From: an uncultured Saprospiraceae bacterium
GTDB taxonomy: Bacteria > Bacteroidota > Bacteroidia > Chitinophagales > Saprospiraceae
Assembly (NCBI GenBank): GCA_937995755.1
Contig: CALKJD010000115.1
Location: 1 to 64,000 of the forward strand
DNA length: 64,000 bases
Direction of reading: 5' to 3'
Within the stretch, counting starts at the first letter, position 1. Every line of letters starts with the position of its first letter. The notes beneath the pieces are model-generated. The model was not told where the DNA came from and made no database searches. It saw nothing but the letters and a program-made list of their open reading frames with translations. Shown here in pieces: positions 37,246 to 61,700 of the stretch. Made by a program: the position numbers and the translations under genes.

Positions 37246-40200
37246 ATGAATGCACATGCCCCTTTAGTCACATTTCGAATTTTATTTTCACTTCTATTTC
37301 TAGGTTTGCATCTTGTATCCAATGCTCAAAATGTTGAACTAAGGTCTCAAGCTGATGTAGATGCATTTGATCCATTGACTACCGAAATAAATGGAACATT
37401 GCTGTTGGGAGATCAAGGTTCTAATACTTCTAATATTGTAGACATAAGTAATTTGTCCAATATAGAACGCGTGTATGGCGATCTAATTATATCTAGAAAT
37501 GTGAATCTCTTAGATATAGACGAGCTCAATAATATTACCAGAATAGGAGGTTACTTATCAGTGACTACTAATGAAAATCTTAAGAATATCGATGGCTTAA
37601 GTAATTTGTTTAGAATGGGATTGGAAAAAGACTTAATAATATATGAAAATTCTAGCCTTGAAAATATTGATGGATTAAGTAACTTAAAAGCAGATGTTGG
37701 TATTCTCCGTATTTTTAACAACTCCACTTTGGCTAATCTTAATGGTCTGAAGAGTATTGAAAAAATACAATCTGTAGAAATAGAATATAATGATGGACTA
37801 GTTAGTTTAAGCGGCTTTGAAGGTTTGTCTATAATAAGTGGGAATACTAGAATCAGAAGCAATATTTATCTTGAGACCATTACTGGTTTTAATAATGTAA
37901 AAGAATTAGGAATATTTCAGATCTACGAAAATCCATCCTTGATCAATGTTGAAATGTATACAACGAGGGAAACCTTAAAGGGGGCATTATCGATTTTTCG
38001 TAATGATGCTTTGGAGGGTATTAACGGATTTGATTCGCTTCGTTACGTCAGCGGATCACTTTCGATTTCAAATAATGCTAATCTTATTTCCATTGACGGA
38101 TTAAAGAATATCATTTCAGTAAGTAGAGATTTACAAATTAGTGGTAGTCGTGTTTTGACTAATGTAGACGCTCTAAGTAATCTCTCAAGTGTAGGTAATG
38201 TTATGCGGATTATATCTAATGAAAAGTTGAGTAATTGTTGTGCTATTAGAGATTTAGTTGAAGATAGTGAAATCGCAATTGGAGATACTTTATTTATTGA
38301 TAACAATGCTTATGGCTGTGATACGATCCCTGAAATCCTTGAAATTAGTTGCGAGATGAGACTTAATTGTGCTATGTCACCACCATGTGTAGGAGGACAG
38401 AATGGAGCAATACACTTGTTTGTAGATAATTATACGTCTGTACCATTTAGTTATTCTTGGCATAAGCAAGAAGACAATACTATGGGAAGTGGTAGCTCGG
38501 AATCAGATAATTTCAACATTGATATGTTATCAGGCGGTACGTATGATATTACGGTGACTACACCTACACCAGATACGATAATAAAATCTAATGTAGTGTT
38601 ATTAGAAACTGAAGGTTCGTTATTTGAAGTAATAGAAATTAATAGTCTTAACAGTTCTAATGGATTAAGTAACGGTAGTCTCTCTCTTACTGTAGATGGA
38701 GGAGTAGCGCCATATTCATATTCGTGGACTGGTCCTGAAGAAGGATCTCAATTAGGGATAAACACGGCTGATTATACTATTGGTGGATTGAGGTATGGTG
38801 AGTATACTATTGTCATAGAAGATGACGAAGGATCTATGGTTACGATAGAGGTTACATTGTTAGATGATGAAGTGCAAGTGATAGATTGCGAAGAGCCTTT
38901 GGATATAGTAATATTGAATGATGTCTCTACATCTGTGGATGCACTAGAGTACCGACAATCACAAAAGTTTTTCGTTGATTTCTTAAAATTTCTAAATATT
39001 GGGACAGGAGACAATGATAGTAGAGCTGCCATTATAGAGTGGGCGTATTCTCAAGATATAAAAATTCCGATAACTGGAGATATATCTGAGTTGGAATCCT
39101 ATACTAATCTAACCCGATCTTTTGAAGGAGCTACAGCAGCACACGATGCTATGCAATATGCACAATTGTATCTTGATGAAAAAGCAAGACCTAATGCAAC
39201 TAAGGTTTTAATCTTATCTACGGATGCGACAAGTGGACAAATCTCTTCTTCATTGTCTCAACTTGCAAATCAACTTAAGGATAATGGATATCACATAGTG
39301 ACCATCGCAATTGATAATGCATATAACAGTCCTGCGGTTAGGGAACGACTTAGGGATATTGCTTCTTTTGATTTATTAGCTCCAGGTGCCACTTCTTATA
39401 ATGATCTCGATAGTCAAGTGGCAGAGGATATAGCTGGAATATACTTATGTCCGATAGACCCAGGAAGTTCGGCTACGGCCTATTTTAATCGTGATGGAGA
39501 GATCGAAATTACAGAGATAAATGTAGTAGGGGATTGTCCATTCCCAGATTTTATAGAAGTGACTATAGATATTAGTGCATTGAGAGAGCTATCAGTTCCA
39601 GCGGGTACGCCTGTTACTTTTTATTCTAACGATCCTTTTTTATATAGCGCAATTCCTATTTTTACATGGTATGTACCCTGTGGTATTCTAGCGAACACTA
39701 CAGAAACTTTTACGATTACGGTTCCTGTTGACGGACCTACCAATCTTTTTGCAATACTAAATGATGATGGCTTACTAAATCCACCTATCAGTTTTCCTAT
39801 TACTTCTATAGAAGAATTAGCGTATTCAAATAATCAAGATAGTGCACAGATTTGTACGAATGGCATAGCTGCAATTCAAGCTTTCAAGTTTATTGACTTA
39901 CCTGTGCCAGGTTGTGATACATTGGTTAATTATACGATTAATGTTTGTAATGTAAGTGAGATAAATGCATTCGGTGTTGTTGTTGAGGATAGACCTCCAC
40001 CAGGCTTTGAATTAACTAATAGTGTTTTTATTGATAATGGTTGTGCGACAGCTGTTGATTTTCTATTCTATAATTTGCCAGCAGGTTGTTGTTTTTCGCT
40101 TTACTTGACTTACGATGCATCAGAAGCTGAGTCCGGTTTTTATGGAGACCAAGATGTCATTCTTAGTGGCCCTGATAATAATATCTATTATAATTTTGAT

Positions 40201-41802
40201 GGTAGTACGACTACTGCAGAAGATGTTACAATAGATGGAACTATTGATTGTAATTCGCCTATTATAGAATTTAGTAAATCTGTCAACTTAGAGGAATCAT
40301 GTGATGATGGCTTTGTAGAATTTACATTTACGATTAATAATGAAATGAATATTCCATTGAAGGGACTTACATTCAAAGATCTCCTTCCTGATCCATGTAC
40401 TTGGATATTTATGCCTTATGGTGCAGAAGGTTTATCGATTGGGAATACAGAGCTAAATGGAAATGAAGCCATCTTTACTATTGATGAAGTGCAACCTAAT
40501 ACGATTGCTACTTTTCATATCGATGCTAGTCTCAATTCATGGGATGCTGATGGAGTTTTAAATAATACAGCTTCCCTAAGCAATGTTCCAGATGTGATCA
40601 ATGGTGGTGTTACAACATTGTTCTCTAATACTACACAAACTGAAATCACTTCGTCTCCTAAGTTGATAATCCCAGATACGATCATAGTGGATCGGAGTAG
40701 TGAAGTCGTAAATTTGTCACCTCTGATTTCTACCGACGCGAATGTATTTTGGACTACCGACGGTGATGGGTATTTTTCAAATCCGACGATGGAAAATACT
40801 TCTTACTTTATTGGTGAACAAGATTTGATCATTGGTGAAGTAGGTTTATTTGTTTCGGCGATGTCAGACTGTAATGAAACGGGTGCTTCTGCAGTAATTA
40901 AAATTGTTGATTGTAGTCTAGAGGTTGAAATTGTAGAGATTGGTGACTGTAATGATATGGGTACACCTTTGGATGAAAGCGATGATGTTTACGAAGTTAC
41001 TTTTGTGGTTTCATCAGATAATATTACTGAAGGAGATCAATTCTTTATGTCTGTAAATGATGATAGAGATACGTTATCGTATTTGACAGAACATACTATT
41101 GTTCTGATGGCAAATGGTATAGTTGATTTTCTCTCTTTTGAAAATCAAGATTCATGTTTTGTTTTTGTAGAACTATATCAAGAAGCGTGCGCAGATGCTT
41201 GCGTTACTATTGCAGAGGTAGAGGATTTAACTATTTATGATTGTAATGATAATGGTACTCCTCAAGATTCTACAGATGACTTTTACGGAGTTGAATTTAC
41301 AATACAATCTGACAATGCTACTAGTGATCATACTTTTGTTACTTCTTATAAGAATGAAATTTATGGACCTTATGACTATGGAGATTTAGTTTCGATGACA
41401 CTAGATGCCGATTTGTTTCTGGATTCTATTTGGGTGATCGATAGTAATATAGATACCTGTTCATTTTTGCTTTTTGCTAATCAAGAAAGTTGTTCTTCAG
41501 AAATACCTTGTACCAATGGACTCCAATGGCCGAAAGTATTTTTTCCGAATGGGATGGATGAATTAAATAGAAACTTTGGTCCATACAATCCTTGTGATTT
41601 GATTGTAAGTAATTACTCCCTCAAGATTTTTAATAGATGGGGCAACGAAGTTTTTGCTACGAATGATTATAGCATAGAATGGGATGGGAGGCATAATGAA
41701 TCTGAAAGTGCAACGGCTGTTTATGTTTACGTGGCAGAGTATTCTCTCAACGGTGTTAGACAGCCGGTTAAAAAAGGAGATGTTACATTATTACGCGATT
41801 AA
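37246..41802 (+). CDS. 1518-residue surface protein: L-domain, VWA and type-B sorting domain
   Basis: Signal peptide at 1-27 (SLLFLGLHLVSNAQ). Residues about 30-360 are receptor-L-like leucine-rich repeats (NLSNIERVYGDLIIS, NNITRIGGYLSVTTN, then a two-Cys cap). An SprB-like module is at about 465-545. A von Willebrand A domain is at about 550-740 with MIDAS start NDVSTS and VLILSTDATSG. DUF11-like adhesion modules occupy about 880-1150. Two copies of a DCNDxGTPxDxxDD module are at about 1234 and 1332. The type-B sorting domain is at about 1424-1518 (FFPNGMDELNRNFG, IFNRWGNEVF, EWDGRHN). It is expected at the cell surface in adhesion or gliding. Long single-gene unit, divergent from 36845. Confidence 0.9.
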   Translation: MNAHAPLVTFRILFSLLFLGLHLVSNAQNVELRSQADVDAFDPLTTEINGTLLLGDQGSNTSNIVDISNLSNIERVYGDLIISRNVNLLDIDELNNITRIGGYLSVTTNENLKNIDGLSNLFRMGLEKDLIIYENSSLENIDGLSNLKADVGILRIFNNSTLANLNGLKSIEKIQSVEIEYNDGLVSLSGFEGLSIISGNTRIRSNIYLETITGFNNVKELGIFQIYENPSLINVEMYTTRETLKGALSIFRNDALEGINGFDSLRYVSGSLSISNNANLISIDGLKNIISVSRDLQISGSRVLTNVDALSNLSSVGNVMRIISNEKLSNCCAIRDLVEDSEIAIGDTLFIDNNAYGCDTIPEILEISCEMRLNCAMSPPCVGGQNGAIHLFVDNYTSVPFSYSWHKQEDNTMGSGSSESDNFNIDMLSGGTYDITVTTPTPDTIIKSNVVLLETEGSLFEVIEINSLNSSNGLSNGSLSLTVDGGVAPYSYSWTGPEEGSQLGINTADYTIGGLRYGEYTIVIEDDEGSMVTIEVTLLDDEVQVIDCEEPLDIVILNDVSTSVDALEYRQSQKFFVDFLKFLNIGTGDNDSRAAIIEWAYSQDIKIPITGDISELESYTNLTRSFEGATAAHDAMQYAQLYLDEKARPNATKVLILSTDATSGQISSSLSQLANQLKDNGYHIVTIAIDNAYNSPAVRERLRDIASFDLLAPGATSYNDLDSQVAEDIAGIYLCPIDPGSSATAYFNRDGEIEITEINVVGDCPFPDFIEVTIDISALRELSVPAGTPVTFYSNDPFLYSAIPIFTWYVPCGILANTTETFTITVPVDGPTNLFAILNDDGLLNPPISFPITSIEELAYSNNQDSAQICTNGIAAIQAFKFIDLPVPGCDTLVNYTINVCNVSEINAFGVVVEDRPPPGFELTNSVFIDNGCATAVDFLFYNLPAGCCFSLYLTYDASEAESGFYGDQDVILSGPDNNIYYNFDGSTTTAEDVTIDGTIDCNSPIIEFSKSVNLEESCDDGFVEFTFTINNEMNIPLKGLTFKDLLPDPCTWIFMPYGAEGLSIGNTELNGNEAIFTIDEVQPNTIATFHIDASLNSWDADGVLNNTASLSNVPDVINGGVTTLFSNTTQTEITSSPKLIIPDTIIVDRSSEVVNLSPLISTDANVFWTTDGDGYFSNPTMENTSYFIGEQDLIIGEVGLFVSAMSDCNETGASAVIKIVDCSLEVEIVEIGDCNDMGTPLDESDDVYEVTFVVSSDNITEGDQFFMSVNDDRDTLSYLTEHTIVLMANGIVDFLSFENQDSCFVFVELYQEACADACVTIAEVEDLTIYDCNDNGTPQDSTDDFYGVEFTIQSDNATSDHTFVTSYKNEIYGPYDYGDLVSMTLDADLFLDSIWVIDSNIDTCSFLLFANQESCSSEIPCTNGLQWPKVFFPNGMDELNRNFGPYNPCDLIVSNYSLKIFNRWGNEVFATNDYSIEWDGRHNESESATAVYVYVAEYSLNGVRQPVKKGDVTLLRD

Positions 41803-44267: not shown

Positions 44268-45110
44268 TTATGATACTGTTTTTGTTTTACCTTTGGCCCA
44301 TACGTTAGTCAGCATTCCGCCGATAATTAATACAATGCCCATTAGTGGTAATAGTTCATACGTTTCGTCGAACATAAAGTATCCCATGATCATAGCAAAG
44401 ATCAGTTCCATATATTTAAAAGGAGCCAAGACGCTTGTTTCTTCTGTTTGGAAGGCTCTAGTCATATAGATTTGACCAATAAGTCCTGCTACTCCAATCC
44501 CACATACAGGAAGCCATTCTTCGCCTATAGGCATCTTCCAGTAATGAATAAAGCAAATGCTTAAAAGTAAAGCGCATATCATAAAGTAATTGATGATGGT
44601 TAAGAAGTGTTCTTTATCACTGAGATATCTGATTAAGACAAAAACACCACCCACTAAAATAGCTGATGCGAGTAAAAGTCCTAGACTGATAAAATCTATT
44701 CGAAGGTCAAAGCCTTTTAAAACAATTACTCCAGTAAATGCAACGACAAAACTTAACCACTGAATCCAATTTACCTTTTCTTTGAGATAATGGTATGCTA
44801 GTATAGCACCGAATATAGGACCTAAATACCTTATTGATATAGCGGAGCCTAATGGTATACGCTGTACAGCTATAAAGAAGAAAGCTAATGATAGTACACC
44901 TATTACGCCTCTAGTGATTAAAGGCTTGAAATGAGAGCCTTTGACTGATATGCCACTATACAGCATGTAGGGAAAAATAAAAATCCATGTACCTAATGCT
45001 CTGAAGAAAACAACTTGCATGGGATGGAAATCAGACAGCTCTTTTGCCATAACGTTCATAAAAGCAAAGGCTAGTGTAGCAAATAAGATGTATCGAATAC
45101 CTTGAGACAT
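44268..45110 (-). CDS. EamA/DMT-family transporter
   Basis: 280 residues, ten membrane helices in two EamA repeats (FAFMNVMAKELSDFHPMQVV opening the first; the second opens near LLASAILVGGVFVLI and includes PFKYMELIFAMIMGYFMFDE). The drug/metabolite transporter superfamily exports small metabolites; the substrate here is unknown. It follows the LodB-like gene after 59 bases on the same strand and is coupled to the next small gene, so it may belong to the quinoprotein operon. Confidence 0.88.
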   Translation of the reverse strand: MSQGIRYILFATLAFAFMNVMAKELSDFHPMQVVFFRALGTWIFIFPYMLYSGISVKGSHFKPLITRGVIGVLSLAFFFIAVQRIPLGSAISIRYLGPIFGAILAYHYLKEKVNWIQWLSFVVAFTGVIVLKGFDLRIDFISLGLLLASAILVGGVFVLIRYLSDKEHFLTIINYFMICALLLSICFIHYWKMPIGEEWLPVCGIGVAGLIGQIYMTRAFQTEETSVLAPFKYMELIFAMIMGYFMFDETYELLPLMGIVLIIGGMLTNVWAKGKTKTVS

Positions 45111-45169: not shown

Positions 45170-46285
45170 TTAATTTCTTCTTGACCAGAATGTACTAGAA
45201 GACCATCTTTTTTCTTGTTGGTAATAGTTTTTTTTAGTTTGCAGATATTGCATAAAATGATTTTGAAGATCTTTTTGGTATTGGACAGATGTGAGGTTAC
45301 TATTTACTTTTAGTTGGGTGGAGACAAGATTTGCAGCATGGCAGCCAGAAGTCATAGCAAAGCCGATTCCCATAGATGAGATAGGATCAAATGATACTGC
45401 AGCATCACCGATGGCGATGAAATTTGCTTTTTGTGAGGTATTAGTAATTTTAGATCCAGCATCACGAACATATAATTTGGGCGATTTTGAAATCATTCCA
45501 GAGACGATATGTTTGAGGTGTTTAGTTTCTGCTAATGCAGTATTCCAGTTGGCAGTTTCGCTTAGTTTATGCTCTGATATTATATCTGCATCAGTAAAAA
45601 GGGTGACAGCGATAGTGTTGTTGGGTAATTGGCTTGTGTACCACCAACCGTATTCGATAGTTTCTATTATTTGCCGATGAGGTATTTTTTGATTGGTATT
45701 GGCTTGAAGAAAAGTGCCAACACCAATTAGCTTATCTATTGTGGTGGTGGGAATTCCTACTTGACGACACACATTACTTTTTCTCCCTGTAGCATCTATA
45801 AGGTATTTGCAATTGATATTTATTTCACCATGCTCTGTATGGGTAGCTTTAATAGACCAATGGTTATCATCTGTTTGTTCATAGTTTTTACAACTCATTC
45901 TCGGTACCACTTTTCCTCCAAGATCTACGACTTTTTTTAATAGCATAAAGTCGAATTCTTGTCTATCCAATTGATAACTCTCATTTTCTGTTGTAAATAT
46001 AGAATCGTTACGAGAGGGTAGATCAGAGCCCCAATAGGAGGTACTGCTGTAACTAGGTACAGTGCATTGATCTATTACTTCTTTTCTATCTAATTTGAGG
46101 TAATCAGTCAAGTCTAATACACTGGCCGAAACATGTTCTCCCACTTTAGTAGTACTCAGATTTGATTTCTCTACAATGGTGACAGATAGGTCTGAGTATA
46201 ATAATAAACTTATCGCGGCGGAAGTCCCAGAAGGACCTCCGCCGACGATAAGTACGTCTGTGTTTATATGCATAGGATGAGTCAT
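45170..46285 (-). CDS. LodB-like FAD-dependent oxidoreductase
   Basis: 371 residues, no signal peptide. FAD-binding motif VLIVGGGPSGTSAAISLL (about 9-26), GG motif near YLIDATGRKSNVCRQVG, and GDAAVSFDPISSMGIGFAM (about 293-311) place it in the halogenase/GoxB-LodB flavoprotein group. In Marinomonas, LodB is needed to make the cysteine tryptophylquinone of LodA. The gene starts 9 bases after the stop of the LodA-like gene, so the pair is an operon. Expected role: hydroxylation of the LodA tryptophan during cofactor formation (known for the family, inferred here). Confidence 0.9.
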   Translation of the reverse strand: MTHPMHINTDVLIVGGGPSGTSAAISLLLYSDLSVTIVEKSNLSTTKVGEHVSASVLDLTDYLKLDRKEVIDQCTVPSYSSTSYWGSDLPSRNDSIFTTENESYQLDRQEFDFMLLKKVVDLGGKVVPRMSCKNYEQTDDNHWSIKATHTEHGEININCKYLIDATGRKSNVCRQVGIPTTTIDKLIGVGTFLQANTNQKIPHRQIIETIEYGWWYTSQLPNNTIAVTLFTDADIISEHKLSETANWNTALAETKHLKHIVSGMISKSPKLYVRDAGSKITNTSQKANFIAIGDAAVSFDPISSMGIGFAMTSGCHAANLVSTQLKVNSNLTSVQYQKDLQNHFMQYLQTKKNYYQQEKRWSSSTFWSRRN

Positions 46286-46294
46286 TGAATTTTG

Positions 46295-48337
46295 CTATCG
46301 TCTACGTGTTCCAGATTTTGGTAGGGGTAACCCATCTTTATGCACGGAGATTGGCTTGAATGCTCTTTCCTCTAAGTAATTTAACATCAATTTTGCTTTC
46401 GATCCTTTCTCTTTTATATTATCACTATTTTTCTCTATAAAGAATACAGGGATTAGCGTTTCGGCATCATCAGTATTTCCACTAATCTGACTTACGGGTA
46501 CATCGTCATAAGTAAATAATGCATTGTTACGTTCTGTCTCGGAGAAATAGGGGAATCCTACAGAACCAGAATTACTATCTCGGATAAATGCTAATGCTGA
46601 CCAATGCTCAACCATCTGTACAAAACTATTGATACCTCGAGCATAATTCATTTGTTGGCCAGCAGGCATATAATTTTGTGATTGTCCTTCTGCAGTTAAT
46701 TCACCAGTAAGTACATCCCAAGGACTTTGTGGTGGCCACCAATAACTATAGTAAGTTGGAGTTACGGGTGTTGGGTTATCGCCATTCGTTTTATTCGCGT
46801 TAGGATCTGTAAAGTTGATGTATTGGATGGTACATTGGAAGAAATCTGCTTGCCAAGGACAGGCCATACGTTTGGTAAGATCTCCTGGTTCACAGCCACC
46901 ACCTTCGCATTCATCTCTTGATGGAGTCAGTCCAGTACTATTATAACCTCCCATTCCTTTCTGATCAGATATCACGAAAGGTGCAGAATATATATTTGGA
47001 TTTTGTACACTCCAGGTTACTTCTATTCCTGGACACATTGGTAACCCAACACAATTACCAACAGCAGCTTGATCCATCTCACTGATAGGATATGGTGTAT
47101 AGTTAGGATCGTTATCAAATAACCCTTTGGCCCATTGTCCTAGTAAGAAATATTGTGTTTCATCGAGACTTAAAAATTTCACTATGATATCGTTGCTCAC
47201 AGAATTACTTCCAGAGTTAAGTGGCATCATTGGAAATTTGTCAGCACCATTTTCTAGCATAAGTTGACCTTGCGGTTGACCTGCTTGATCTGTTGATTTA
47301 TCATTGGGTTGACGGAAGTAGGAAAAGTAGCTCTGACGATTAGCTAAGTTACTCTCACTATTGTCTCCAAAGTCAAAAATGTTTGAAGCAAATGCAGCCA
47401 TAGATTGCACATTAGCGACCCATTGATATCTACCGATACGATTGATAATAGGTAATATATCTCTCTGATAGTTTGCTCTATAGTCAGGGTTGAAGTTACC
47501 TCCCAAACACATATCTTCAACAAGTTCAAAATTCCTAATGGCAATATCAAACATGGAATCACTGAGGTTAGATATATTCACTATTTCTGGTGCGAAATCT
47601 GGGGATCCTACAATACACCAAGCTTGTAGATTTGCAGTAGGTGTACCATCGTTAAATGTAATGGTACAATATACAGGTCCATCAGAAATGTCATCATGCC
47701 ATGTGTTAGATCCTCCGTAACTTGTAAGGGGTTCGTTGCCACCTGCATTACCATACCCACCAAGTACTACGAGTCTTCCTTTGCTGTCTGTAACTATAGT
47801 CCCCAAAGTTTTGATAGGACTTCCATTAGTCACAGAAGGTGAAGGAAAGCTTACAGGATAATTGTTATGTACGGTATTGTCAAATTCTGCACGTTTACAT
47901 GCCTCATTTAAAGTTCGTGGTCCTGGATCTATAATAAGTGCTTGCCTATCTGATTCGTCAGTTACATTAGCATTTCTTAGAGGGACTTTTTGATTGGTAT
48001 AACTATTCTGCTCACCATATAGCAAGTTGCCACTTAGCTCGCTGTAATTATACCATGCAGCTTTTTTATTAGCTAGATGAACAGTCCACTCTATAGAATC
48101 GACGTTAGAAGAATCTAAAGTAATCTCCTTGTTCGATTCATCATAGATTTTGAAAGGTTGTCCTTGTCGACGCACTCTTCCAGCACTATCTTTAAAGTTT
48201 TGAATAGGGCCTAGTTGATTGCCAAATTCATCTGATTCATATGGCAAACCACCTATACTATCAGGGGAAAGGCAAAATTGTCCAGGACTGTTTCCAAGTC
48301 TTGCGACACCTATTGAGGGTTTGATTGAAAAACTCAT
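46295..48337 (-). CDS. LodA-like cysteine-tryptophylquinone amino-acid oxidase
   Basis: 680 residues, no signal peptide. The opening IKPSIGVARLGNSPGQF matches LodA/GoxA proteins, as does MCPGIEVTWSVQNPNIYSAP (about 434-453). The cofactor cysteine is probably C502 in PWQADFFQC, with Asp498 four residues before it, the spacing known for LodA. The partner tryptophan is W533 or W534 in YSYWWPPQSPW, about 31 residues later (65 in LodA). Such enzymes oxidatively deaminate an amino acid (lysine for LodA, glycine for GoxA) and release hydrogen peroxide; several act as antibacterials when secreted. The substrate is not readable here. Divergent from the proline-iminopeptidase-like gene. Confidence 0.9.
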   Translation of the reverse strand: MSFSIKPSIGVARLGNSPGQFCLSPDSIGGLPYESDEFGNQLGPIQNFKDSAGRVRRQGQPFKIYDESNKEITLDSSNVDSIEWTVHLANKKAAWYNYSELSGNLLYGEQNSYTNQKVPLRNANVTDESDRQALIIDPGPRTLNEACKRAEFDNTVHNNYPVSFPSPSVTNGSPIKTLGTIVTDSKGRLVVLGGYGNAGGNEPLTSYGGSNTWHDDISDGPVYCTITFNDGTPTANLQAWCIVGSPDFAPEIVNISNLSDSMFDIAIRNFELVEDMCLGGNFNPDYRANYQRDILPIINRIGRYQWVANVQSMAAFASNIFDFGDNSESNLANRQSYFSYFRQPNDKSTDQAGQPQGQLMLENGADKFPMMPLNSGSNSVSNDIIVKFLSLDETQYFLLGQWAKGLFDNDPNYTPYPISEMDQAAVGNCVGLPMCPGIEVTWSVQNPNIYSAPFVISDQKGMGGYNSTGLTPSRDECEGGGCEPGDLTKRMACPWQADFFQCTIQYINFTDPNANKTNGDNPTPVTPTYYSYWWPPQSPWDVLTGELTAEGQSQNYMPAGQQMNYARGINSFVQMVEHWSALAFIRDSNSGSVGFPYFSETERNNALFTYDDVPVSQISGNTDDAETLIPVFFIEKNSDNIKEKGSKAKLMLNYLEERAFKPISVHKDGLPLPKSGTRRR

Positions 48338-48545: not shown

Positions 48546-49601
48546 ATGAAAAAACTGATTTCAATATTTGCAACGCTGCTAATCGTTTTTGTAATGGTTT
48601 CTTGTCAGTCCAATGATCAATCTGTTCAGCATCCATGCATGGCTCAAGACTATATATCTAGCGATGGATTATCAGATCAATCTATGGGGGGAATAAAGAT
48701 GATCCCCATAGATACACCAAAAGGTAATTTTAAGGTATGGACTAAAAGAATTGGTAATAGTCAGACGATGAAAGTATTATTGTTGCATGGTGGTCCTGGT
48801 ATGACTCATGAGATATACGAAAGCTTCGAAGGTTATTTTCCACAAGCTAATATCGAGTTTTATTATTACGATCAATTGGGATCTTATTATAGTGATCAGC
48901 CAGAAGATCTAAGTCTTTGGAATCTAGAAAGATTTGTAGAAGAAGTAGAACAGGTGAGGGTGGCCCTAGACCTCAATGATGACAACTTTTATCTCTATGG
49001 ACAATCTTGGGGTGGGATATTAGCGATGCAGTATGCTCTTAAATATCAAGATAATATAAAAGGACTGATTATATCTAATATGGTTTCTTCGATTCCTGAT
49101 TATATGAAATACTCTGATGAAGTATTGGCTCCCCAATTACCAAAGGAGGTGTATGAGGAAATAATGAAATACGAAGATGCCGAAGATTATAGTAATCAAC
49201 GATATCTGGATCTAGTCACGGAGCATTACTATACAAAACATATTATACGAATGCCACAGAGTGAATGGCCTGATCCAGTGCAAAGAGGATTTAAACATCT
49301 CAATCCGGATGTATATGTAACAATGCAAGGGCCAAGCGAATTTGGAATCAAAGGTGACGCAACGCTCAAAGGTTGGGATGTAAAAGCAGAACTACCTAGT
49401 ATAAAAGTACCGACATTAACCATAGGGGCAGAATACGATACGATGGATCCTAAACATATGGAATGGATATCTGAGACGGTACAGAATGGAAGATATTTGT
49501 ATTGTCCTAATGGTAGTCATTTATCTCAGTTTGATGATCAAGAGCATTTCTTTCCAGGCTTAATTAAGTTTATCAAGGATGTAGATAATAATCAGTTTTA
49601 G
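48546..49601 (+). CDS. proline iminopeptidase-like alpha/beta-hydrolase lipoprotein
   Basis: 351 residues. Signal peptide with lipobox (VFVMVSC). Hydrolase motifs: oxyanion HGGPG (about 81), nucleophile GQSWGG (about 152-157), acid in EYDTMD (about 297), and His in NGSHLSQFD (about 323). The YYDQLGS segment (about 110) and HGGPGM pattern fit the S33 proline iminopeptidase family. It should remove N-terminal Pro or hydrophobic residues from peptides at the membrane surface. It faces away from the LodA-like gene. Confidence 0.88.
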   Translation: MKKLISIFATLLIVFVMVSCQSNDQSVQHPCMAQDYISSDGLSDQSMGGIKMIPIDTPKGNFKVWTKRIGNSQTMKVLLLHGGPGMTHEIYESFEGYFPQANIEFYYYDQLGSYYSDQPEDLSLWNLERFVEEVEQVRVALDLNDDNFYLYGQSWGGILAMQYALKYQDNIKGLIISNMVSSIPDYMKYSDEVLAPQLPKEVYEEIMKYEDAEDYSNQRYLDLVTEHYYTKHIIRMPQSEWPDPVQRGFKHLNPDVYVTMQGPSEFGIKGDATLKGWDVKAELPSIKVPTLTIGAEYDTMDPKHMEWISETVQNGRYLYCPNGSHLSQFDDQEHFFPGLIKFIKDVDNNQF

Positions 49602-52348: not shown

Positions 52349-55300
52349 ATGCAAAAGATTACACTCATTATTATTGGACTTGGTCTGTGTTTAGGATTGT
52401 CAGCCCAACAAGTTACATCAAAGAAAGTCGAAGGGGTGTCGGTTTCTACTAGTACAGTAAAGCTTATGGGCAAGTCCCAGCCGATTAGAAATTTGACGAG
52501 CAAGAACGCTATGTCTAAGGAGAAGAAAGACATTCTCAAGAAAGAAAGAATAACTCCAGATAACTTTAAAGGTAGAAGAGGTTCGAGTATGGCGAAAAAT
52601 GCCGCAAAAGAACATCAAGGAGTAGATCTATTAAGGCAGATGGATTTTGGGGCGAACAAAAAAAAGGTAGCCGCCGAAATATTAGTAAATATTGATGGAG
52701 TAGGAAATGGATCTCCATTGGATCCTACAGGAGATGTAAGTAATAGCCACTACGTACAAGCGGTCAATGCAACAATAGTTGCGGTATACGATCTAGAAGG
52801 TAACTTAGTAGAGCAATTTCAAATGCAAACATTGTGGTCAGAATTTAATGCACAATCTATGGGTGATCCTATCATTTTGTTTGACGAAGTAGCTAATCAG
52901 TGGTTTATTACGGAGTTTACAGACCCTGCAAATTTATTGATTGCAGTAAGTGAGACTGATGATCCATTGGGTAGTTATTATGCATATACATTTTCTACGC
53001 CTAACTTCCCTGATTATCCGAAGTATGCCATTACACCTAAGTCTCTAGTTGTTACTTCTAACGAAGAAGGTGCAGGAGTGTTACATCAGTACTTTATAGA
53101 AAGAGAAGCATTGCTAGCTGGGGAAGATGATGTAATCATGCAGAGAGTTGAAATAGAAGGAAGTCCAAATGCTGAGCAGAACTTTATAGTTTCGACACCG
53201 GCGGATTGGAATGGTACTAATCTTCCATATGATGATAGACCTATAGCACTAAAGCTGAATGATAGCTCTTGGGCAGATGGTCCAGAGGAAGATCAGATTG
53301 AGCTTTACTCTTTTGATATTGATTATGAAGACCAGAACAATACTCAGGTGACTCAGACAAGTATTGTAGTTTCTCCTTATGATGCATATCCTTGTTCTTC
53401 AAGTGGATTTGGATTTGCATGTGTGCCGCAGAGCGGTGGTGGTGGACTTGATGCCATTCCTGAAGTGATAATGAATGTTCCTCATCAGAGAAATTTCGGT
53501 ACGCATGAATCATTGGTATTTAACTTTGTTACTGATGTGACTGATGGAGATAACCTATCAGGAATCAGATGGATGGAACTAAGACGTACTTCAGCGGATG
53601 AAGAGTGGTACTTATATCAAGAAGGTACGTTTGCGCCAGACGACGGTAAGGATCGATTTATGGGATCTATAGCAATTGATAAAAATGGTAACATTGGTCT
53701 CGGTTATAATATCTCAAGTGAAGATGATTTTGTTGGAGTGAGATTAACAGGAAGATTTGCAACGGATACTTTAGGTCTTATGACTGTTGAAGAATATGAG
53801 CCTGTTGCTGGACTAGGTACTATCCAAAGTGGAGGTAGATTTGGTGATTATTCACAAATGAGTGTATCGCCTGATGGTGGTACATTTTGGTTTACTACGG
53901 AGTATGCTGGCGACGGCAATTTTGTGACAGAATCGAGAATTGTGTCATTCAAACTAGCAAAAGATTCTTTTGACCTTGCGGTAACATCTATTATCGAACC
54001 AACGACATCGTCGCAGTTGACAGATAGTGAACTAGTGACTGCCAGGATAACGAATACAGGTGTAAATGTTATTTCTTCTTATATCGCTACATTGATGATT
54101 AACGATGTAGAAATTGAATCAAAAAGTATCAATGATGCATTAGGCGAGGCTGAAAACATAGAAGTACAATTTGATACTCCTATTGATATGTCTAGTTTAG
54201 GAGACTACAATATCACAGTTGCGGTATCTACTGAAATAGATTTCAATCCTCTAAATGATACTCTAAGAACGCGTGTTTCTCAATTGCCAGCATTAGAAGC
54301 TGCTCTGACTGCTACGGCAGAAACAGGGATATGTGCAGAAGAAATAGGATCAGTAGTAACGATAGAAAACATTGGAGATTTTGACATCACCTCAGCTGTG
54401 ATCAATGTCAACATCAATGGCGTAGATGTAGATCAAATTGTTTTTACAGGATCTATCGAGACTGGTGCGACTTCTACTTTGGAACAGTTATTATCTACAG
54501 GCTTAGAAACAGGAGAGAATACGGTGGTTTTTTCATTAATTGAAATCAATGCTGAAACTTCAGATTTTAATCCTGTTAATAACTCTGCTACTGTGGTCAC
54601 AACGTTATTAGATGATTCTAACTTTCTTACGCTTGTATTCAATGCCGATAACTATGCGGATGAAATTTCTTGGATCCTCACTAATACCACATCAGGTAAT
54701 GTAATCAGTGAAGGAGAATTAGTAACTAATAATGGAACTTATAGAGAAGATATTTGTGTACCTGAGGGCGATTGCTTCACGCTAGAGGTAATTGATTCAT
54801 ATGGTGATGGTATGTGCTGTCAATTTGGGTCGGGTAACTTTAGTGTGCTCAATATGGATGGAGAATTACTTCTTTATAATGATGGAGACTTTAATGACGG
54901 TACAATAGAGTCGTTTTGTCAAGACCCAATATTATGTTTATTAACAGCCGTGATTACAACGTCTGACGCATCCGGAGATGGTGTTTCTGATGGAACGATC
55001 ATTATAGATGCGAGTAACGCAATAGCGCCGTATACTTATAGTATTAATGGTAATTCAGCACAGGAAAGCTCAATATTTACTAATCTCGTTTCTGGTGATT
55101 ATGATGTGAGAGTTATCGATGCATCTGAAGCTTGTATTTATGAAGAGACAGTAACAGTAGGTACCATGACTAGTGTTGTCGATATCGATGGAGTAGCAGT
55201 AGAGCTTACTGTAATTCCTAATCCTACGGATGGAGTATTCAAATTGAAATTAGATAATCTACCTTCATCTGATAAGTTTATCAATGTTGAAATTATTGAT

Positions 55301-55453
55301 ATAACTGGTAAGGTAGTACAAAATAGAATTGTCGGTAAATATGATGATTCTTTCATTGGTACATTCTCTCTTATGAGTTATCCTAATGGGGTCTACTTTG
55401 TAAGAGTATTACACCCGACAGCTAATATTTTAGAAAGAGTAATAAAGCAATAA
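52349..55453 (+). CDS. large secreted multidomain protein with type-A T9SS sorting domain
   Basis: 1034 residues. Signal peptide (ITLIIIGLGLCLGLSAQ). A basic linker (residues 25-110) precedes a roughly 410-residue propeller- or sandwich-like domain with GDPIILFDEVANQWFITEF, PKYAITPKSLVVTSNE and SIAIDKNGNIGLGYN. CARDB-like modules follow at about 545-640 and 650-755, then a DSYGDGMCCQFG Cys-rich module (about 810), an SprB-like module, and a type-A sorting domain (VIPNPTDGVFKLKLDN ... GVYFVRV). It should be exported by the type IX system. Enzymatic function not evident; adhesin or surface-layer-type role inferred. Confidence 0.87.
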   Translation: MQKITLIIIGLGLCLGLSAQQVTSKKVEGVSVSTSTVKLMGKSQPIRNLTSKNAMSKEKKDILKKERITPDNFKGRRGSSMAKNAAKEHQGVDLLRQMDFGANKKKVAAEILVNIDGVGNGSPLDPTGDVSNSHYVQAVNATIVAVYDLEGNLVEQFQMQTLWSEFNAQSMGDPIILFDEVANQWFITEFTDPANLLIAVSETDDPLGSYYAYTFSTPNFPDYPKYAITPKSLVVTSNEEGAGVLHQYFIEREALLAGEDDVIMQRVEIEGSPNAEQNFIVSTPADWNGTNLPYDDRPIALKLNDSSWADGPEEDQIELYSFDIDYEDQNNTQVTQTSIVVSPYDAYPCSSSGFGFACVPQSGGGGLDAIPEVIMNVPHQRNFGTHESLVFNFVTDVTDGDNLSGIRWMELRRTSADEEWYLYQEGTFAPDDGKDRFMGSIAIDKNGNIGLGYNISSEDDFVGVRLTGRFATDTLGLMTVEEYEPVAGLGTIQSGGRFGDYSQMSVSPDGGTFWFTTEYAGDGNFVTESRIVSFKLAKDSFDLAVTSIIEPTTSSQLTDSELVTARITNTGVNVISSYIATLMINDVEIESKSINDALGEAENIEVQFDTPIDMSSLGDYNITVAVSTEIDFNPLNDTLRTRVSQLPALEAALTATAETGICAEEIGSVVTIENIGDFDITSAVINVNINGVDVDQIVFTGSIETGATSTLEQLLSTGLETGENTVVFSLIEINAETSDFNPVNNSATVVTTLLDDSNFLTLVFNADNYADEISWILTNTTSGNVISEGELVTNNGTYREDICVPEGDCFTLEVIDSYGDGMCCQFGSGNFSVLNMDGELLLYNDGDFNDGTIESFCQDPILCLLTAVITTSDASGDGVSDGTIIIDASNAIAPYTYSINGNSAQESSIFTNLVSGDYDVRVIDASEACIYEETVTVGTMTSVVDIDGVAVELTVIPNPTDGVFKLKLDNLPSSDKFINVEIIDITGKVVQNRIVGKYDDSFIGTFSLMSYPNGVYFVRVLHPTANILERVIKQ

Positions 55454-55711: not shown

Positions 55712-58700
55712 TTAATTACTTGTACTACAACCGTTGCTATCTACTACTTCAAAGCAATATGTGACACCTCCAGTCAATCCATAGATAGTATGATTTCCAT
55801 GGAAGTTAAACACTTCAGATCCTGTCTCAGGGCCATCTTCTGATTTCCAATAAATGGTATATGGGATAACACCTCCAGATACATTGATAGTCACTGAACC
55901 TTCTCCGATTTGACAATCGTCATTTATATTGGCAACTATAGTGGCTTGAGGATCAGGGGTAGTGATTTCTATATCCGTAGGCCAAACATCTTGACAGCCA
56001 GTCTCAAGAGAAGTGATTGTTATATCGGAGTATGTACCTTCGCATAGACCATCTATAAGTATATCTCCAGCAAAGTTGTAAGGTCCATCGGTAATGGTGT
56101 TTCCGTCGTATGTATATGTAATTTCAAATTCTCCAGTGACTCCGAGGTTGGCATCTACAGTGAAGCTTCCATCGCATACACCACTACAGTTACTCACACC
56201 ACTAGTTAATGTAACGTGTTCCCAGTCAGCATGCGATTCACTTATTTCGATATCGTCTCCAGTCCATATATCTGTACAACCCGTATTAGTACCTTGGATA
56301 GTAATATTGGAATAAGACCCTGCACATAGATCACCAATAACTATAGCCGTATCTGGTTCAACACCAAAGTCGTAAGGCCCAGCAGAAAATGTTGTTCCAC
56401 CATAATCATAATAAACTATAAATGGTCCAGTTACTGAGTAGTCGACTTCAATAATCATATCTCCAGTACAGCTACCATCACAAGCTACGTTCGATCCAAG
56501 AGTAACATTTTCTATTTCTGCATCATTTACTGTGATACTAATGTCATCAACGACTTGACACATATTATTATCAGTAATGGTCACGGTATATGTAGTACTA
56601 CTGGTTGGATTGACAGTAATAGTTGGTGTAGAAGGTCCATTACTCCATTGGTAACTATAAGTAAATCCTGACATCGTATTAGTTACGGAAGCCGTAATAT
56701 TAATTTCAGCTCCATTACATGACGAAGTATTGTCTGCAGTGATAGATACTTCTGGTAAAGGATTGACCGCTACCGTAATATCCGCGGTAGAAGTACAGCC
56801 GTCATTATTAGTGACAGTAACTACATACGTAGTAGTAGATAGCGGTGATACGCTAACTTGATCTGTAGTGGCGCCTCCTGCAAATGCGTTCCACTGATAA
56901 GTTAAACCTGAAGGACTCGCGGTCAGAATAGTAGCTGAGCCATAGCATATGTCCTCATCGCCATTGACAGTAGGGACAAATGGGGGCAGAACTTCTACGG
57001 AATCTTCTGCAGTACAGCCATTATTATCGGTCACAGTCACACTATATACGCCAGCTGAAGTGACTACAGGGTTTTGGTCGGTAGACACGAATCCATTGGG
57101 TCCAGTATATGAGAAGGTATAGCCAGGAGATCCACCTGTTACATCTAAATCTAGTTGAGTATTGCCAACTTCAAAACAATTAGATCCGTTAATGCTAAGG
57201 TCAGTTGTTGGAGGTTGATTTACAGTTACATTGATAAATGTAGCGGCGGTACATCCATTGTCGTCAGTTACGGTTACTTTATATTGTGTATTCGCTATTG
57301 GACTTACAGTATGGCTAGCTGCATCACTCAATCCATTATCCCAAGTGTATACAAAAGGTGCATCACCAGTTGATGTAGGCGCTTCTATTAATACAGATTC
57401 GCCTGCACATATTTCACCTGGAGTAGCGGAGCCTGTAATGTTAACTTCATTTACATCTACGACATCTGTTGATGTAACATCACAGCCATCATTAGTAGTA
57501 TAAGTATATGTAATGGTGTGAGATCCTGTGCCTGCCACATAAGAGTTGAACGTAGTACCATCAATTATTCCAGGTCCAGAATAAGTGCCACCGAGAGGGA
57601 GACCACCCGAAAGTACAAAGTTGACATCTTCAATACAAAAGGCTTCAAATGGTAAGTTGAGAGTTACGTCTGGAGTCTCTATGATTTCAACATCATCGAT
57701 GGCGGCTTCCAGTTTACTTCCTCCACCGTAATCAGAAGATCTAACCCTTATGTATATTGTCTTTCCAGCATGTGCAGTCAAGGTTGTTGATGCACTAGTC
57801 CAAACAGCATTTCTATTGGATGCAGCACCAATTTCTGATACTACAGTAGTCAATACATTATCATTTGAAGCATCTAATATTTCTACATATAAGTAATCCG
57901 AACTGCTACTATTACTATAATGCGCAAAGTAATACTGTAGGTCAAAGGCAATATTGGTTACATTGGTGGATAAGTTAATATCTCTAGACCTAGCGACGGT
58001 TTCACCTCCATCAAGGTCTTGCTGGTTTCCATTCCCTGTTAAAAGGTCTTGGCTACCTCTATAGGGGACGATCTCCATTAAGATACCATTAGTATTGTAT
58101 GGATTAGGTGATCCTATTTCAAAATTACCATCGGAGGCGCCATTGGTAAACGTCCATGCGTTATCTCCACTTGTATTTTCAAAGTTGGCTCTGAAAGCAT
58201 TATCTATTCCGATACATGCACAGTTAGAGGGTGATATACTTAAAGGATTGTTAGAATAGCCAGCAAGACATCCTGTGATCGTATTCCGGATTACTATAGT
58301 ATAGTTTCTTGGTACTAGATTGTCAAAAGTATTTGAAGATTGGTAAGAGACGCCACCATCAATACTATATTCTAAATCACTACCACTCGCAGAAATGGTT
58401 AAGCTTCCATTATCATTTTCTGGACAATTGGAAGGGTCTGTTACAACGATGTTTGTAATTTCGCCAACACCACAGGCAGGGTCTTCACAATCCGTAAGTC
58501 CATTACCATCATTATCTATACCATCATCACATATCTCAACACAAATTGGATCTTCTATAATGACAGGATTAAAGGCATAATCTATATTACATCCAGTCAA
58601 AGAATTTTGGACCCAGATATTATACGTGCCTGCAGTAAGATTTAAAAACTCATTACTTGTCTGGTAAGTGATTCCGCCATCAACACTGTATTCTAGGTCA

Positions 58701-61700
58701 GAGCCAATGGCCTGTATACTGATCGTTCCATTGTCAAGAATGGGGCAGTTGTCTGTATTAGTAGAGCTAAGGAAAGTAATGACTGGATTACAATCGTCAT
58801 CAGCACAATCTGTAAGTCCATCGCCATCATTATCGATGCCATCATCACATATTTCTATCACCTGACATCCACTTTCGAATGTTGTATATCTACCAAGTCC
58901 TATTCTTTGATTACCACTATTAAATCTGTGATATGTTCCACTATTACCTTCGACATTTAAGGCATAATCAGTATATACAAACTGGACACTAGATACAGTA
59001 CCAGAATTATTTACTGTGATATTACCTGATGGATCAAAAGTTTGTGCTTGAATAACTTCGTGAATATCAGGGCGATCATTATTGTTATTGTCCGTAAAAT
59101 TGGCTCTCGCTACATCTCCAATTACTTTTACTTTATTACTATTGTATGGAGTAATTACATTATTGCCGGCACCTGAAAGTATTTGTACTTGATCAATGTA
59201 GGCACCTGCATAAGATCCGTTGTTGCCAGAGAGATCCATATCTATATCCACTATTGTATACTGAATATTAGAGAATGCTTGTCCATTATCAAGATACATC
59301 GTCACTGTCATGTTAGATGTATTATCTCTGTAGTAATTGATCGTACCATTTATATTTTCCTGACCTTGCAAATCAAGATCTATAACCGTCTGGGCTCCGT
59401 TATAAACAATCGATGGATCATTGGTATTAAATTCTGCGTCATTAAGGACTGCACCATTAGGGAAGTTGACCGCAGAACCACCAGCAGGTCCTCCTTCGAG
59501 TACCATAGATACAATGTAATTAAATCCTGCGTCTGAACCATCAGCAGCATAAAGAACATTACCTTCAGCTGTAGCTACCTTGTCACTAAATTTAGTTATG
59601 ACTGGCACATCCAAATCAAAATCAATCATGTAAGTATTAGATGCGTTTACACATTCTGAATCCTCGCAATCGATGTCACCATCACCATCATTATCGATAC
59701 CGTCATCACATATTTCTCCACATATTGGATCTTCTAATACAACAGGATTATTTGGGTAGGCGGTAGTACATCCAGTGGAAGAGTTAGCCAATATGATGTA
59801 GTAGTTTCCTGGTGCTAATCCAGCGAACATACTTGATGTTTGATAGGTAACTCCATTGTCAATACTGAATTGCAAGTCATTTCCAGATCCTGTAATAGAG
59901 ATCGTTCCGTTATCTAATACTGGACAATTATATGGAGGGTACGCGGTAACTAAACCAACCGTTGGAGCTCCACAGTTTCCATCAAGACAATCAATAAGTC
60001 CATCGCCGTCATTGTCAATTCCATCATCACATATCTCGTTACATGTGCTATTATATAAAGTTACTGTAGGGCCATTTCCTTCACAACCAGTTTCACTATT
60101 TCTAGCCCTTAGGTAATAGGTGCCTGCAGTAAGATTATCAAAAGATGGATCATCCTGGAACGTAGCTCCACCATCAATACTGTATTGTACATGAGATCCC
60201 ACAGCATCCATTAAAATGTTACCATTGTTTAAGGCGTAGCAGTTGTCAGGATCAGTATGATCTTCACCAATAGAAGAAGGTGTACCACAATCGCCATCTG
60301 CACAATCAATATTTCCATCTCCATCATTATCAATTCCATCATCGCATATTTCACCACATTCTGGATCCACTAGCACTAAAGGATTATTGACATAAGTGAG
60401 AACACAGCCACTTACTTTATTCCTTACTTTGATATTAAATGATCCGTTGTATAAACCAGAAAAAGTAGGTGAGTTTTGATAGATAATACCGTTAGTGATA
60501 CTATATTCTAAATCGTCTCCTGTAGCTATTATTATAATAGAACCATTATTCAAATCAGGACAGTTACTCGGATCTGCTGCAAGCACATTGTCTATAGTTG
60601 CTGGATTACATTCTGGATCATCACAATCGATAAGTCCATCACCATCATCATCTATATTGTTATTACAGATCTCTGCACAAACTTCTTCATTTACTACAAA
60701 AGGATTGAAAGGATAATCCACTTCACATCCTGTAATTCCATTTTTAATTACGACGGTGTAATTTCCAGAAACCAAACCAGTAAAAGTATTTGAAGTTTGA
60801 AATGTTACACCACCATTGACACTAAATTGTAAGTTATTTCCTGAAGCAGATATTGTTATATCTCCATTGTCTAGAGTAGGGCAGTTGTCAGCTGAGTTAC
60901 TAGTTACACTATTATAAGTTGGAGCTTCACAATCTGGATCATCACAATCTGCGTTACCATCACCATCATTATCAATACCATCACCACATATTTCTACACA
61001 TACTGGATCAGTAATCACGACGGAGTTGGATGCATAATCAATGTAACATCCTGATTCAGTATTTCTTACTCTGATGTCATAGTCGCCAGCAGAAAGATTA
61101 TTAAATTGATTGCTTATTTGATAAGTAGCTCCACCATCTATACTAAATTCTTTATCATCTCCTGAGGCGAAAATATTGATGTAACCGTTGTCTAGATCTG
61201 GACAGTTATCTGGATCACTAGATATCACTTGTATGATATTAGGAGTAGGACAATCCGTGTCATCACAATCTGCATTACCATCACCATCGTTATCAATACC
61301 GTCGCCACAAATTTCAACGCATACAGGATCTGTAAGTAATACATTATTACTGGCGTAGTCTACATAACATCCGGAAACGCTATTTCTAACTCGGATTGTA
61401 AATGATCCGTTTTCTAAATTATTAAAGATGTTACTTGACTGATAAGTTGAACCACCATTGATACTATACTCAAGATTAAGACCTAATGCTTCTATTGTGA
61501 TGAGACCATTATCAAGATTAGGACAGTTGTCTGGATGTGCAATGTTTACAGAAGAAATTGTAGGCATCCCACATTCTCCATCTGCACAATCTATCATGCC
61601 ATCACCATCGTTATCAATTCCATCATTACAAATTTCCGGACATGCAGCATCTATAAGCATGAGTGGATTAGAAGCATATTCTAGTTCACAATTAGAAATG

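Follow-up and report, generated by a model that had tools for sequence, protein, structure and literature searches.

A predicted L-lysine epsilon-oxidase gene and its LodB maturase gene in an uncultured Saprospiraceae bacterium

The lodA-lodB pair described here is an ordinary new member of the well-described LodA/LodB family. It lies in a 64,000-nucleotide stretch of DNA from an uncultured Saprospiraceae bacterium (hereafter the window). We put at about 90% the probability that lodA codes for an L-lysine 6-oxidase (epsilon-oxidase), that the adjoining LodB completes its cysteine tryptophylquinone (CTQ), and that the oxidation of lysine yields H2O2. The relevant features are the following.

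46295-48337, minus strand: lodA, LodA of 680 aa, predicted CTQ-dependent L-lysine epsilon-oxidase (ORF; PF17990 and PF18417; NF038172; match to 3weu/2ymw); D498, C502 and W534 form the cofactor site, Y207 and C435 are LodA-type active-site residues
46727..46861, minus strand: CTQ-site region of LodA, C493..Q537, comprising CPWQADFFQC, a variable loop (about residues 517-523) and YYSYWWPPQ (alignment to Marinomonas mediterranea LodA and 41 sequences)
45170-46285, minus strand: lodB, flavoprotein maturase LodB of 371 aa (ORF; NF038171; FAD motifs)
44268..45110, minus strand: EamA-family transporter (PF00892, E=5e-31), 59 bases past lodB on the same strand

The sequence-only reading of this DNA had proposed an operon for a CTQ oxidase of the LodA/LodB type in a Saprospiria-like bacterium. 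The type of operon, and a Saprospiraceae-like bacterium as its host, are borne out by Pfam, equivalog and PDB matches, by the relatives and by the tree. Its operon coordinates, the 9-nt gap between lodA and lodB (bases 46286-46294) and all the motifs that it named were recovered in the minus-strand ORFs: IKPSIGVARLGN, CPGIEVTW (with C435), CPWQADFFQC (with D498 and C502) and YWWPPQSPW (with W533 and W534).

The 680-aa protein contains LodA_N (E=1e-62) and LodA_C (E=4e-52) in a Pfam scan, it scores 1215.7 bits against the NCBIfam LodA equivalog NF038172 over model positions 2-683 of 684 (the curated cut-off is 600 bits), and it matches the LodA structures of the PDB (3weu/2ymw) with E~2e-248; these matches are far beyond chance. 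Membership of the GoxA family was considered and rejected, the score being 183.2 bits against a cut-off of 750 for NF038173. The 371-aa protein passes the cut-off of the LodB maturase model NF038171 (514.2 bits for a threshold of 400) and remains below those of GoxB (214 bits) and QhpG (163 bits). It has the GxGxxG motif of FAD binding (GGGPSG at 15-20) and GDAA at 293-296. The window LodA is the single LodA_C match in its genome.

D498, C502 and W534 align with D512, C516 and W581 of M. mediterranea LodA (3weu, 2ymw), which agrees with the initial placement of D498 and C502. These three residues are invariant in 41 sequences, and W533 is conserved at a level of at least 90% only. The tryptophan of the cofactor had been sought at W533 or W534, about 31 residues after the cysteine; since W534 is the residue that aligns with W581 and is invariant in the 41 sequences, we retain W534, which lies 32 residues after C502, and discard W533.

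The AlphaFold2 model of LodA, built with 41 sequences, has the overall fold of LodA (pLDDT 79.6, pTM 0.86). It superimposes on LodA structures with Z of 40-45 over about 620 residues (45.3 to 2ymw) and on GoxA with Z mostly of 29-30; the Foldseek TM scores are 0.85 to 3weu and approximately 0.58 to GoxA. The pLDDT falls below 50 just at the cofactor site, in the loops formed by residues 497-512 and 523-541, which is too low for the geometry of C502 and W534 to be read from the model.

The distance between the cysteine and the tryptophan had been presented as a distinguishing trait of the window protein, being shorter than in LodA. It is not distinctive, because a spacing of 29-37 is the commonest among LodA relatives and the 65 residues of M. 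mediterranea LodA come from a loop insertion; we therefore do not take the short spacing as the mark of a new variant. The spacing is 32 in the window LodA and in its same-genus relative, 29 in Rheinheimera A13L, 37 in Pseudoalteromonas flavipulchra, and 29-37 in most LodA relatives of Bacteroidota and Proteobacteria, all fetched relatives being considered. Values of 59-71 are found in M. mediterranea LodA, in one mostly Flavobacteriia subclade and in a few other sequences, and GoxA-like sequences have 15-17. The difference sits in the variable loop between NK and PPxYYSYWWPPQSPW, and on a tree from which the loop columns were excluded, short and long spacings have to be interchanged four times. 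Judging from the sequences, M. mediterranea LodA owes its spacing to a variable loop insertion that one subset carries, so that the less common case is the yardstick of the earlier comparison, not the window protein. Comparisons should not take the 65 residues of the crystallised LodA as their reference, since the loop is variable, and usually short.

Regarding the substrate, Y207 and C435 of the window LodA align with Y211 and C448 of LodA. The structures of GoxA carry F316 and H583 at these positions, and the GoxA-like sequences likewise have Phe and His; the Tyr/Cys pair is common to nearly all sequences that resemble group IA of the family. We take these positions to bear on activity, on the basis of the mutagenesis of LodA and GoxA. 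The PDB holds the F316A and H583C mutants of GoxA.

The phylogeny, a check that the sequence-only reading had called for, places the window protein inside the CTQ family, with the group IA types: it falls in one clade with M. mediterranea LodA, Rheinheimera A13L and P. flavipulchra types (99 SH-aLRT, 62 sequences). The matching clade of 34 sequences has a support of 100/100 under a mixture model in a 40-sequence tree. Exactly where M. mediterranea LodA (its residues 546-563 entered as X) branches within the clade is not settled, owing to the length of its branch. Two members of group IA, LodA and AlpP, are demonstrated lysine epsilon-oxidases, and the proteins of Rheinheimera A13L and of the species P. 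flavipulchra were assigned to this group in a survey (PMC4417212). Since the equivalog score, the clade and the Tyr/Cys pair all agree, L-lysine epsilon-oxidase is the best prediction for the window LodA, and the initial description of its substrate as unknown appears too pessimistic.

Lysine specificity is not certain, because group IA holds at least one strain, of P. flavipulchra, for which a wider use of amino acids has been reported (PMC4417212). The window protein may share the fold and the CTQ cofactor but oxidise another amino acid, or a range broader than lysine. The family does include glycine oxidases and many uncharacterised groups, and lysine oxidase detection failed for groups IB, IC and ID (PMC4417212); the nearest relatives of the window LodA are themselves uncharacterised. 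We nevertheless find this reading improbable: the protein groups with the IA types and reaches twice the LodA cut-off, its GoxA score is far too low, and it has the Tyr/Cys pair of nearly all IA-like sequences.

Departures from this pair are seen elsewhere among the relatives. In those of Aureispira (L061:6001-8151) and Sorangium (L063:6001-8091), serine replaces the cysteine at the position of C448, and in L064-L068, L071, L073 and L075, from Pseudomonas, Paraburkholderia, Alphaproteobacteria and Chlorobiota, phenylalanine replaces the tyrosine at the position of Y211 and the equivalent of Cys448 is kept. Such mixed LodA/GoxA-like signatures might go with other substrates.

The nearest relative of the window LodA (78% identity) comes from another Saprospiraceae genome that belongs to the window's genus (locus L008). 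The gene order around lodA and lodB is shared: the EamA transporter gene and small genes come after the pair, and the TauE gene with its neighbours comes before it. The window differs by an extra gene between TauE and lodA, coding for a hydrolase of the proline iminopeptidase family (48546-49601, divergent from lodA), which is missing at that place in L008. The LodB gene adjoins the LodA gene in most of the relatives fetched. The LodB-like ORFs beside LodA in L061 and L078 are short (234 and 258 aa, compared to approximately 370), possibly because they are frameshifted, cut by a contig end, or split. No LodA was seen in two other genomes of the window's genus, and among 395 genomes drawn from the phylum the LodA cut-off is passed by no genome other than that of the window; the operon is therefore sporadic.

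The EamA gene is possibly co-transcribed with lodAB. The same order after lodB was found only in L008, and the association may be simple synteny; no evidence of a role of the transporter in the LodA/LodB system was found, and the neighbouring genes examined gave no further sign of a larger system. That the short-loop LodA of Bacteroidota has a shifted substrate range, and that the co-oriented EamA transporter moves the substrate or the product, strikes us as very unlikely. Least credible of all is a decayed LodA homologue devoid of CTQ, for which we found no supporting point beyond the low model confidence of the cofactor region, and against which stand an intact ORF, the retention of all invariant residues in both the window protein and its same-genus orthologue, and an intact LodB alongside.

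The sequences themselves show what the genes are, which residues are conserved, the presence of the LodB partner and the clade. The mechanism that we propose for the predicted lysine epsilon-oxidase follows that of characterised relatives, from cofactor formation to substrate, chemistry and ecological role. In LodA/LodB, the first hydroxylation of the tryptophan is considered autocatalytic, and the finished cofactor requires LodB, that is, for the second oxygen and the Cys-Trp crosslink (PMC7876137, PMC4699246). In the window protein, C502 and W534, with D498 next to them, would likewise be converted after translation into cysteine tryptophylquinone, a process that the LodB flavoprotein would complete. 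A Schiff base would then form between the mature quinone and the epsilon-amino group of lysine, the aldehyde would be released, and re-oxidation of the quinone by O2 would give ammonia and H2O2.

Mature LodA oxidises lysine and releases H2O2, which results in antibacterial and biofilm effects (PMC7876137, PMC4699246), and the extracellular proteins (PfaP) of P. flavipulchra lose their antibacterial effect in the presence of catalase (PMC3853003). By analogy with Marinomonas and Pseudoalteromonas, the H2O2 would most likely help the bacterium to compete with others or to disperse biofilms. The window's genome encodes, on another contig, a two-domain catalase-peroxidase, whose presence is compatible with self-protection; the assembly, which is 92.7% complete, shows no heme catalase (PF00199) of the kind described near pfaP. 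For LodA we identified no secretion signal, and the Pfam scan detected no type IX C-terminal domain; a simple pattern for a Bacteroidota-type promoter motif had no match in the 208 bases upstream of lodA.

On either side of the operon the window also encodes large multidomain proteins: one at 37246-41799 with VWA, SprB and a CHU_C type IX secretion domain, one at 52349-55450 with Por_Secre_tail, and a 2640-aa protein at 55718-63637 with Ig/PKD-like matches. LodA matches none of these domains.

Last, we compare the window operon, a further case from Saprospiraceae of a known peroxide-producing lysine oxidase, to known systems. The LodA/LodB system of M. mediterranea (2ymw, 3weu, 3wev; NF038172/NF038171) shares with it both domains, the whole-length fold, the D/C/W and Tyr/Cys residues, and the lodA-lodB order (PMC4417212 for M. 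mediterranea). The two LodA are 58% identical over 675 residues; the stretch from Cys to Trp is 33 residues shorter in the window protein (32 versus 65), the shorter state being the commoner in the family. The antibacterial lysine oxidases of the PfaP/AlpP type from Pseudoalteromonas (group IA) belong to the same clade as the window LodA. The relative from P. flavipulchra (L057) shares with it 63% identity and the same five key residues, and has a spacing of 37; these types differ in coming from Gammaproteobacteria and in having a slightly longer loop. With the glycine oxidase GoxA/GoxB the window LodA has in common the fold, although the similarity is lower, and the D/C/W cofactor residues, but GoxA has Phe316 and His583 and the GoxA-like sequences a spacing of 15-17, whereas the window LodA has the Tyr/Cys pair and a spacing of 32.
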